From positions 23,729 through 87,728 of the forward strand of contig CAMVJD010000008.1 of NCBI GenBank assembly GCA_947167715.1: a stretch of 64,000 bases of DNA. Reading direction: 5' to 3'. The DNA is from an uncultured Eubacteriaceae bacterium (GTDB taxonomy: Bacteria > Bacillota > Clostridia > Lachnospirales > CAG-274). Under the pieces are notes generated by a model. The model was given only the letters and a program-made list of their open reading frames with translations. It did no database searches and was not told where the DNA came from. The first letter of the stretch is position 1; every line of letters starts with the position of its first letter. Positions 31,415-39,705 of this stretch are shown here, piece after piece. A program made the translations under genes and the position numbers.

Positions 31415-32059
31415 ATGAAATACTGTAAAAGATGCTTCAGAAACATAACAGAGGATGTTTCGGTTTGCCCGTTTTGCAATCAATCGGACAAACTTATAGA
31501 TTACGACAAGGAAAAACGCGGGGAGGATTTTACCTGCAACGACGAGTCTTCGTTCACAAGCCATATTAAAAAGGACGCCTACGACACCGAGGACAGCGAG
31601 GCCGATGCGGACAATGCCTACGGCAACCAAAAGCGCCATAATATAGACAACTGCGAAAACAGCGCAGAGGCGCCCGAGGCAGCCGATCCGGGTACACCCA
31701 GCGAAAATTTAAGCAAAACGCTTACATATTTGCGTACACTTCCCGCAAATGTAAGACAGGGGCTTATAAGGACATTGCTGGAGGATATAGAGCGCCGTTA
31801 CGGCCCTAATCCCGACGAAAATTCCACCGTTACCGTAAACGGCAGGGAAATAACCGTGGCACAGTTTAAAAAGCTTGCCGTGTTCTTTAACACGACGGAT
31901 ATGCAAAAAACTGCGGCGAATACCACGACGGTAAATAAAAATATGGCATCCTTTATTGCGGTTTGGGTGATAATTACCGTTATTTTCCCGCCCCTTGGCA
32001 TAATATTGGGTATTATTGCAATATCTATATATACACAAAATAAAAAGAAACAACAATAA
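31415..32059 (+). CDS. Zinc-ribbon N-terminus, single C-terminal TM hypothetical protein
   Basis: MKYCKRCFRNITEDVSVCPFC; acidic linker; C-terminal hydrophobic segment. Confidence 0.7.
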   Translation: MKYCKRCFRNITEDVSVCPFCNQSDKLIDYDKEKRGEDFTCNDESSFTSHIKKDAYDTEDSEADADNAYGNQKRHNIDNCENSAEAPEAADPGTPSENLSKTLTYLRTLPANVRQGLIRTLLEDIERRYGPNPDENSTVTVNGREITVAQFKKLAVFFNTTDMQKTAANTTTVNKNMASFIAVWVIITVIFPPLGIILGIIAISIYTQNKKKQQ

Positions 32060-36870: not shown

Positions 36871-37263
36871 AGATTTCAATTTGACGGGGAGTTTCTTGGG
36901 GGCTCCGCGCCCCCAAACCCTGCGGTTACTTTGGAGCCAAAGTAACCAAAGCTAATCTGCGAATTTATGCTATTTTATACCAAAGTTTTCACCGCAGCTT
37001 TACACGCCGCAAATAGGTATTTGCGGCAACAAAAGTTACAAATGCGGAAATAAAGTTGAATTTTAAATAATGTACTTCGCGGAAATGCTTTGCCTACATG
37101 TGAGGGATCCTTTAGTATCCCTCATCTCGCAGAGATTTGAATTGCTTTAGCAATTCAAACAAGGAGCCAAAGTAGGCGTGGGTGTGGGGTTCGGTCATTA
37201 CCCCGCGCAGGGGCGCGCGGCCCCACAAAACGTAAGAATTAACTACTCGTCAAATAGAAATTT
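36871..37263. repeat. MITE-like hairpin-rich noncoding element with imperfect ~21-bp terminal inverted repeats
   Basis: Left AGATTTCAATTTGACGGGGAG vs revcomp right AAATTTCTATTTGACGAGTAG (17/21); internal perfect stems at 36896-36916, 36924-36947, 37006-37027, 37101-37124 and 37136-37159; no credible ORF. Confidence 0.6.
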
Positions 37264-37281
37264 GATTTAAGGAGATATTAA

Positions 37282-39705
37282 ATGTCGGTTTTAAAGTGTA
37301 AAATGTGCGGCGGAGAGCTGAACATTACAGATATAAACAGCGTAGTTAAATGCGAGTTTTGCGGTACATTCCAGACCGTCCCCACAATAGACGAGGAGCG
37401 TAAGGCCGGGCTTTTCAACCGCGCTGTGCAGTTACGGCTTGCCAACGAGTTTGACCGTGCCGCCGCCGTATACGACAGCATCATAGGTGAATTTCCAAAC
37501 GAGGCCGAGGCATATTGGGGTCTGGTTTTATGCAAATACGGTATAGAATACGTTGACGACCCGCCTACGGGTCTTAAATTGCCTACCTGCCACAGGACTT
37601 ATGTCGATAGAATATTCTCGGATGAAAATTATATTAAGGCAATGGAAAATGCCGACTCGGTGGCGCGTGAGCTGTACGAAAAAGAGGCCTATATAATAGA
37701 CGAGATACAGAAAATGATACTGGATATAGCGTCAAACGAGGAGCCCTTTGATATTTTTATAAGCTGTAAGGACAGCGACGAAAACGGAGCGCGCACAAAA
37801 GACAGCGTGCTTGCACAGGAGATATATTATGCGCTTACAAACGAGGGCTACAGGGTATTTTTCTCGCGCATTACGCTGGAGGACAAGCCCGGCACACAGT
37901 ATGAACCGTATATTTTTGCTGCTTTGAATTCGGCAAAAATAATGATAGTTGTCGGCACCAAGCCGGAGTTTTTTAACGCTGTTTGGGTTAAAAACGAGTG
38001 GCAGAGATTTCTGGAGCTTATGAAAACGGATAAAAGCCGTACAATTATCCCTGCCTACCGTGATATGGATGCCTACGACCTTCCCGACAGGCTTGCGGTG
38101 TACCAGGCGCAGGATATGTCAAAGCTTGCCTTTATGCAGGACCTTGTGCGCGGAATAAATAAGCTGCAAAACAGGACCGCCGCAGCCGATGTTGCCGCTC
38201 CCGCGGATAATTCCGTGAACAGCGGTACACTTCATCCCGAGATATTAAAGCTGCTTAAAAGAATAAATATCTGCATAGAAAATAACGAGATAGGCAGTAT
38301 AGAGAGCTACTGCAATAAAATACTGGATATCGACCCCGATTTTGCCGAGGCGCTTTGCCTGAAAAAAATGACAGGTTACGACAAAAGCGTTTATAAGGTG
38401 CGGGATTGGGACAACTGTGCAATAGACGGGGATCATATAACAACTGCCGACAAAACAAGGATAATAGGCTTTGTACGCATTGAAAGCAATATAAAAATAA
38501 CGGATGATACAAAATACCTTGACTGCCTGCCGTTTTATTCGGTACCCGAGCTTGAAAGTGCCGAGTTTGCCGATAATATACAGGCAGACCCCGATATTTT
38601 TATGTTTTTTGACTGTACACAGCTTAAAAGCGTAAAGCTGCCTTTAAATCTGACACGCATAAATGATAATGCTTTTAACGGCTGCACAGCCCTTAAGCAT
38701 ATAGATATACCGCAAAATGTTGAATATATTGGCGAATACGCTTTTTATAACTGCACCGCGCTTGAAAGCATCAGCCTGCCTGATAAATTAAACGATATCG
38801 GCTATTATGTGTTCGGCGGGTGCAGGTCGCTCGGAGAGATAAAATTCCCGCCCGAGGTAACGAGCATAGACGCCTATGCGTTTTACGGCTGCGGCTCGCT
38901 TAAAAATATCACTCTTCCGTCGAAGTTAAACGATATAGGCGAGCATGCCTTTGACGAGTGTTCCCGTCTGGAGGAAATAACCGTGCCCGACGGTGTTACG
39001 GAAATAAAGGATTACAGCTTTCAGGATTGTTTTGCGCTTAAAAGCGTATCATTGCCGGAAAAATTGGACAAAATAGGTATGTGGGCTTTCAGAAATTGCC
39101 GCTCGCTTACCGCGATACATTTGCCAAACGGCGTAAAAAGGATAGAAGAGGGCACCTTTAACGGCTGTACCTCGCTTGTCAGCGCGGATATCCCCAAATG
39201 CACCACAAGCATAGGCCTGCACGCATTTAACGGCTGCGGTATGCTTGAAAGGGTGGCTTTGCCTGCTTGTATTGAGGAAATGGGCCGCACGGCCTTTGAC
39301 AACTGTCCCGTGCTTAAAATAACCATACCCGACAGCACGCTCGACAGGCTGATAGAAAAGGACAAAACAAGCATAGGTATGTGGTTTGACCGCGTTATTG
39401 ATCCGTCAACAGGCGAATATTTGCCTATCCGCGGCGAAAGAGGCTTGCTTCTTACGTCAAACGAAAGAAAATTCAGGGAAAGAGATACCAAGCGTGCCGA
39501 GATGATTCTTGCCGAAAAAAACAAAAGAATAGAAGAATACAAAAAACAGCTGGAGGCCTTAAAGACAGAACGCGACAACGCCGTAAAGGAGATATCAAGG
39601 CTCGGTATATTCGGCCTTGGAAGAAAAATAATGCTTAACAGGCGTATAGATGAGCTTATTAATGAAATAAACGAGGTCAAATTTTTGCTTGACAAACTAA
39701 AATAA
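37282..39705 (+). CDS. Zinc-ribbon / TIR domain / BspA-type LRR / coiled-coil protein
   Basis: CKMC...CEFC; FDIFISCKDSDENG...GYRVFFSRITLEDKPGTQYEPYIFAALNSAKIMIVVGTKPEFFNAVWVKNEWQRFLE; LRR_5 repeats from about residue 430; charged C-terminal coiled coil. Confidence 0.88.
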   Translation: MSVLKCKMCGGELNITDINSVVKCEFCGTFQTVPTIDEERKAGLFNRAVQLRLANEFDRAAAVYDSIIGEFPNEAEAYWGLVLCKYGIEYVDDPPTGLKLPTCHRTYVDRIFSDENYIKAMENADSVARELYEKEAYIIDEIQKMILDIASNEEPFDIFISCKDSDENGARTKDSVLAQEIYYALTNEGYRVFFSRITLEDKPGTQYEPYIFAALNSAKIMIVVGTKPEFFNAVWVKNEWQRFLELMKTDKSRTIIPAYRDMDAYDLPDRLAVYQAQDMSKLAFMQDLVRGINKLQNRTAAADVAAPADNSVNSGTLHPEILKLLKRINICIENNEIGSIESYCNKILDIDPDFAEALCLKKMTGYDKSVYKVRDWDNCAIDGDHITTADKTRIIGFVRIESNIKITDDTKYLDCLPFYSVPELESAEFADNIQADPDIFMFFDCTQLKSVKLPLNLTRINDNAFNGCTALKHIDIPQNVEYIGEYAFYNCTALESISLPDKLNDIGYYVFGGCRSLGEIKFPPEVTSIDAYAFYGCGSLKNITLPSKLNDIGEHAFDECSRLEEITVPDGVTEIKDYSFQDCFALKSVSLPEKLDKIGMWAFRNCRSLTAIHLPNGVKRIEEGTFNGCTSLVSADIPKCTTSIGLHAFNGCGMLERVALPACIEEMGRTAFDNCPVLKITIPDSTLDRLIEKDKTSIGMWFDRVIDPSTGEYLPIRGERGLLLTSNERKFRERDTKRAEMILAEKNKRIEEYKKQLEALKTERDNAVKEISRLGIFGLGRKIMLNRRIDELINEINEVKFLLDKLK

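Follow-up and report, generated by a model that had tools for sequence, protein, structure and literature searches.

TIR proteins of gut bacteria, among them COPEUT_02740 of Coprococcus eutactus and HMPREF0367_01592 of Eubacterium cylindroides, have already been shown to cleave NAD (PMC9092222), and the binding of a capsid protein by the Thoeris protein ThsB1 illustrates that TIR proteins can sense infection directly (PMC12578639). The membrane proteins YdjG and YdjH of B. subtilis anchor the SPFH protein YdjI, which recruits PspA (PMC8581546). Our study brings these two kinds of protein together in the analysis of a gene (37282..39705, + strand) lying in a 64,000-nucleotide stretch, hereafter the window, of contig CAMVJD010000008.1 from an uncultured Eubacteriaceae bacterium. 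The gene encodes an 807-residue protein in which a zinc ribbon, a segment resembling tetratricopeptide repeats (TPRs), a TIR domain, a TPR linker, a BspA-type leucine-rich repeat (LRR) array and a coiled coil follow one another. Its N-terminal part is a conserved module that occurs with swapped C-terminal tails throughout a family of proteins, and the genes of this family are linked, both in gene order and by co-occurrence in genomes, to genes for an SPFH protein and a membrane protein. We give roughly even chances to the window gene encoding a modular receptor, in which a sensor is joined to a TIR NADase that works with an SPFH membrane platform in defence or stress signalling; such signalling is probably the purpose of the receptor. 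The family looks like an undescribed immune-type or stress receptor system, and no paper on a TIR-SPFH system was found in the open-access literature.

A conserved TIR module with exchangeable tails

A preliminary description of the gene, made from its letters, had pointed to a TIR-like domain and to E239 as the candidate catalytic glutamate. The TIR domain (residues 153-297; 37738..38172, + strand) is borne out by a match to Pfam TIR_2 (residues 172-281, 4.8e-12), by an AlphaFold2 model of residues 1-297, run with 87 homologs, which has a confident TIR fold (mean predicted local distance difference test score, pLDDT, 91.8), and by a Foldseek comparison of that model with the PDB, whose top matches are TIR domains, with SARM1, AbTir and the SPARTA TIR-APAZ protein at the head and plant TIRs among them. 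SARM1, AbTir and SPARTA are NADases. E239 (codon 37996..37998, + strand) is found exactly where it had been placed, in the motif WVKNEW within the model helix 234-249, as expected of TIR NADases, whose catalytic glutamate lies in helix alpha-C, and profile alignments put it on the glutamate of the flax L6/L7 TIR and of TcpB. Glutamate occupies this position in 86 of the 87 homologs aligned, and the remaining one (L098) is a divergent protein whose TIR has lost the motif. This conservation, together with the alignment, supports NADase activity as a candidate function.

The family was collected by a module scan with residues 1-305; 115 loci were confirmed, and the analysis retained the 80 best. 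The resulting set of 77 loci represents the closest relatives of the query and not a random sample; its genes are simple open reading frame (ORF) calls, and many of its loci are contigs of metagenome-assembled genomes, some of them perhaps misbinned (Methanocorpusculum, Victivallales). The hosts are mostly gut and rumen Bacillota (Clostridia, Lachnospiraceae, Oscillospiraceae, Erysipelotrichi). In nearly all loci, residues 1-297 form a conserved module about 55-82% identical to the window copy, and beyond residue ~297 the members differ, with C-termini made of LRR, RCC1, DUF6273, WG or zinc ribbons; among 97 family C-termini, DUF6273 was found in 20, RCC1 in 14, LRR_5 in three and TPRs in many. 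Two to four copies of the module are present in 27 of 76 loci. In some loci (L013, L045, L053, L055), neighbouring paralogs have N-terminal modules 90-95% identical in protein and tails that are nearly unrelated, with about 28-35% identity over short stretches only. Near-identical modules with unrelated tails are the pattern expected of a fixed output module combined with varying sensors, and the occurrence of one TIR module on many tails strongly reinforces the logic of LRR sensor and TIR effector that had been proposed for the window protein. In a comparison with the ortholog from a congeneric species (G001), the ratio of non-synonymous to synonymous substitution rates (dN/dS) is 0.09 for the TIR domain, 0.26 for the LRRs and 0.04 for rimO, and the regions flanking the LRRs diverge more than the LRRs themselves. 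The TIR value indicates that the architecture is not due to chance; judged by these rates, the module is under purifying selection, with a faster-evolving tail. Positive selection on the LRRs was rejected, their ratio being below 1.

The full-length AlphaFold2 model (pLDDT 88.2) gives the order of the remaining parts. The zinc ribbon (residues 1-36; 37282..37389, + strand) is made of beta strands, and its cysteines, C6, C9, C24 and C27, lie at the positions first assigned to them and are kept in 124/124 homologs covering those positions. The helical region described initially is indeed helical in the model (helices 39-151); more exactly, it is a TPR-like segment (residues 37-152; 37390..37737, + strand), with a weak Pfam match to TPR_14 at 46-81 (2.3e-3) and TPR proteins of the PDB among the matches of its profile, and a second TPR-like pair comes after the TIR domain. 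This pair (residues 312-363; 38215..38370, + strand) follows a disordered link (300-311), has its helices at 319-363 and belongs to a linker common to the family (A2 consensus LLKRxxxxLEDGxWxxA..). A beta region then leads to the BspA-type LRR array (residues 441-690; 38602..39351, + strand), eleven 23-residue repeats that match LRR_5 (5.2e-87) and show a strand every 23 residues. The C-terminal coiled-coil-like segment (residues 726-806; 39457..39699, + strand) consists of the long helices 726-773 and 779-806, so that the LRR array and coiled coil recognised at the outset both stand. The gene itself is a single intact ORF with an ATG start that spans exactly 37282-39705 (+ strand), and a ribosome-binding site, AGGAG, can be read directly 7 bases ahead of the ATG (37270..37274, + strand).

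The position of the tail relative to the membrane differs among members, as predicted across the family by a simple hydropathy scan and the positive-inside rule. Among members with a single transmembrane (TM) segment, located in the tail, 45 of 46 are predicted to be N-in, which places the TIR module in the cytosol; the part beyond the TM has a median length of 252 residues. In L041, for example, the same module is followed by a TM at residue 600 and then by LRRs. The predicted topology of these proteins resembles that of Toll-like receptors (TLRs). In the window protein no TM segment was found by hydropathy (the top 19-residue Kyte-Doolittle mean is 1.06), nor was a signal peptide, and its LRRs are therefore predicted to be cytosolic, in agreement with the initial expectation. 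On this prediction, the window protein and the other TM-less members have a placement like that of nucleotide-binding LRR receptors (NLRs).

Two possible generators of tail diversity were rejected. Small serine recombinases (Resolvase + HTH_7, ~200 residues) are encoded near TIR/SPFH genes of several species (L114:6571-7200, − strand; L172:1929-2522; and L013, L018, L021, L030, L046, L118, L121 and L123). The idea that the serine recombinase, present in nine loci, drives a shufflon or inverts promoters was discarded because six recombinase-TIR regions have no shared inverted repeats. Diversification by diversity-generating retroelements (DGRs), suggested by the presence of DUF6273 in known DGR targets, was likewise discarded, since a motif scan of the loci gave no DGR pattern; the sole reverse transcriptase in that scan is retron-like, with a YADD motif (L046:2787-3698, − strand), and lies near a TIR-SPFH locus. 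One array, which also holds a transposase-like gene, contains a 102-residue truncated remnant of the TIR module (L171:4476-4781), which suggests turnover of copies.

SPFH and membrane-protein partners

In 51 loci, the TIR genes are accompanied on the same strand by a gene whose flotillin-like product combines a zinc ribbon with an SPFH (Band_7_1) domain, and in 45 also by one encoding a polytopic membrane protein of ~232 residues that has no Pfam match. The partner genes are always on the TIR strand, with gaps mostly below 150 bp, in the order [TIR]n-SPFH-membrane or SPFH-membrane-[TIR]n. The family is present in 17/288 genomes of the class, and by Fisher tests, which count related genomes as independent, the SPFH protein occurs in 14 of these 17 versus 14 of the 271 other genomes (p=1e-13), the membrane protein in 13/17 versus 9/271 (p=9e-14) and, among 41 close relatives, the SPFH protein in 8/8 genomes with TIR versus 3/33 without (p=1.7e-6). 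Neither partner has a match in PADLOC.

SPFH pairs that lack a TIR gene mostly adjoin genes for other proteins with an N-terminal zinc ribbon, a pattern that points to the zinc ribbon as the part that docks onto SPFH. Among the proteins encoded next to an SPFH gene are TIR-less zinc-ribbon proteins of 260-280 residues (L133:2915-3694, L139:3011-3790, L135:206-1045, L160:6358-7170, L162:5658-6482), which are possible alternative clients of the platform. Two further loci (L156:2557-4071, L157:1-1278) encode a fusion of the membrane partner to a tail of the TM-TPR-DUF6273-like kind, a sensor class also present on the TIR proteins. Other genes found within or beside TIR loci encode SIR2-like proteins (L043:5012-6058, L039, L051), a 369-residue protein family without a match (L045, L052, L056, L078) and a DUF4062 protein (L123:2349-3428). 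Genes within 2 kb (≤2 kb) of the operons matched 160 PADLOC families versus 51 for genes more than 3 kb away, totals that include redundant profiles and are not per gene. The SIR2-like and DUF4062 neighbours and this excess of defence-profile matches lean weakly towards a role in conflict.

A receptor model and its alternatives

In the model that we favour, the N-terminal module (zinc ribbon, TPR-like helices and TIR) would be the output and docking part, and the C-terminus an exchangeable sensor, which in the window copy would be the cytosolic BspA-type LRRs and coiled coil. The zinc ribbon/TPR part would dock onto the SPFH-membrane platform; upon sensing of a ligand or of damage by the C-terminus, the TIR domains would cluster and cleave NAD(P)+ through E239, and the resulting NAD depletion or ADP-ribose signal would lead to a defence, possibly anti-phage, or an envelope-stress response. 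A fuller version of the scheme, with one TIR output, plug-in sensors outside (TLR-like) or inside (NLR-like) the cell, a flotillin-type platform, and recombination between tandem copies as the means of swapping sensors, is tentative. If the model is true, gut bacteria share the logic of animal and plant TIR receptors, in which a single output serves many sensors, and in addition couple it to a membrane scaffold of the SPFH type. For bacterial TIRs, we found no precedent of such a coupling in the open-access literature. The model would also account for many TIR genes of gut Clostridia to which current catalogues of defence systems give only weak matches, and the tail-swap architecture would provide a testable model of recognition by bacterial TIR proteins.

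Several points weigh against this model. The window TIR gene has no SPFH pair beside it, and its surroundings are not a defence island. A glutamate at the position of E239 is no guarantee of NADase activity, since how often it occurs is not always a guide to how active the proteins are (PMC7075850). The docking role of the zinc ribbon is read from gene association, and the counting of related genomes as independent bears on the co-occurrence tests described above. Lastly, no homologs of the module were found in plasmid, phage or viral collections, which sets the family apart from many mobile defence systems and led us to reject an origin in mobile elements.

The best surviving alternative, which we regard as rather unlikely, is that the system serves envelope stress or membrane homeostasis and not immunity, the SPFH pair acting like Bacillus YdjI-YdjG/H and the TIR proteins as adaptors or as NAD-based messengers of damage to the membrane or wall. 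The SPFH domain is indeed of the Band_7_1 type, as in B. subtilis YdjI with its YdjG/YdjH partners (PMC8581546), and the tail is predicted to be extracellular in most single-TM members. However, PspA was found in only 2/19 TIR-bearing genomes and not in that of the window, the controls B. subtilis and E. coli being positive, and its absence from 17/19 indicates that the SPFH pair is not part of the B. subtilis Psp pathway; the Psp stress system was rejected for this reason. Moreover, a family that is patchily distributed, occurs in tandem copies and swaps its tails resembles a conflict system more than housekeeping.

It is quite unlikely that the TIR domain is a scaffold and not an enzyme, recruiting a downstream partner upon sensor-driven clustering in the manner of animal TLR adaptors. 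The profile similarity of the module to a TLR TIR (E=2e-4) fits this idea, as do the zinc ribbon and TPRs, which are interaction modules, and the presence in some loci of other candidate effectors such as the SIR2-like proteins; the near invariance of E239 in its WVxNEW motif and the rank of SARM1, AbTir and SPARTA as best structural matches argue against it.

The locus itself bears on the notion of a solo cytosolic anti-phage gene that needs no SPFH or membrane partners, which we hold to be improbable. The window gene has no such partners beside it: its neighbours are ppdK and rimO, amid genes of core metabolism; three genomes (G313, G072, G139) have a TIR gene and no detected SPFH gene. On the other hand, the window genome, in which the module occurs once, contains one intact SPFH-membrane pair on another contig (C88), so that the partners are present and unlinked to the TIR gene, and SPFH occurs in all eight TIR-bearing relatives. 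The earlier suggestion of a one-gene module is thus unsupported, because SPFH and membrane-protein genes normally occur with family members. Nor is the gene universally core and syntenic with rimO: only G001 shares the ppdK-rimO site, and in three other genomes of the genus (G002, G003, G004) the place upstream of rimO is taken by different genes. Finally, a secreted effector acting on the TLR signalling of an animal host, as TcpB does, is extremely improbable: the hosts are gut bacteria and the TIR resembles TLR and TcpB profiles, but the window protein lacks a signal peptide and TM, its N-terminus is a zinc ribbon, single-TM members are predicted to be N-in and the conserved operon encodes a cytosolic/membrane scaffold.

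Two further features of the window lie upstream of the TIR gene. The sequence GGAGCCAAAGTA, possibly a dispersed repeat, occurs twice in the intergenic stretch (36933-36944 and 37163-37174; 0.01 expected by chance), and about 5 kb upstream a gene (31415-32059, + strand) encodes a further protein with a zinc ribbon, which has a TM segment at its C-terminus and lacks a TIR.

Comparison with described systems

No convincing match to a known anti-phage system (PADLOC 2023) was obtained for the window protein, the matches being weak or partial. The closest is the candidate PDC-S66, whose profile is matched by 79/87 module sequences (best E 1.3e-8; window protein 3.9e-5); the match is partial, covering residues 123-261 only, and the profile is that of a candidate and not of an established system. 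The resemblance to Thoeris consists in a probable NAD-based output and in weak profile similarity of the window TIR to ThsB (E 0.018) and ThcB4, the score for the latter being 20 bits against a curated cut-off of 220. The zinc ribbon, TPRs, exchangeable tails and SPFH-membrane partners are what distinguishes the window family from Thoeris. The ThsA-type STALD/SLOG was found in 0/22 TIR-bearing genomes by a search that also gave none in control genomes and thus had no positive control.

Plant TIR-NLRs (L6, RPP1, ROQ1) share with the window protein a cytosolic TIR and LRRs, and E239 aligns with the L6/L7 glutamate. The window protein differs from them in that neither the Pfam scan nor its full-length model contains an NB-ARC or NACHT ATPase of the STAND type, so that clustering would need the LRRs, the coiled coil, the TPRs or SPFH. 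The likeness to TLRs lies in the single-TM members of the family, with their predicted cytosolic TIR, one TM and outside sensor, and is closest in L041, where a TM separates TIR and LRRs as it does not in the window protein. The order of the parts is inverted relative to TLRs, with the TIR at the N-terminus, the LRRs are of the BspA type and the partners are bacterial; nothing points to a shared ancestry of the two architectures. These partners recall the YdjI-YdjG-YdjH-PspA system, in which a Band_7_1 SPFH protein is likewise encoded in an operon with membrane partners (PMC8581546), with the difference that the variable place is here taken by TIR proteins or by other zinc-ribbon proteins.
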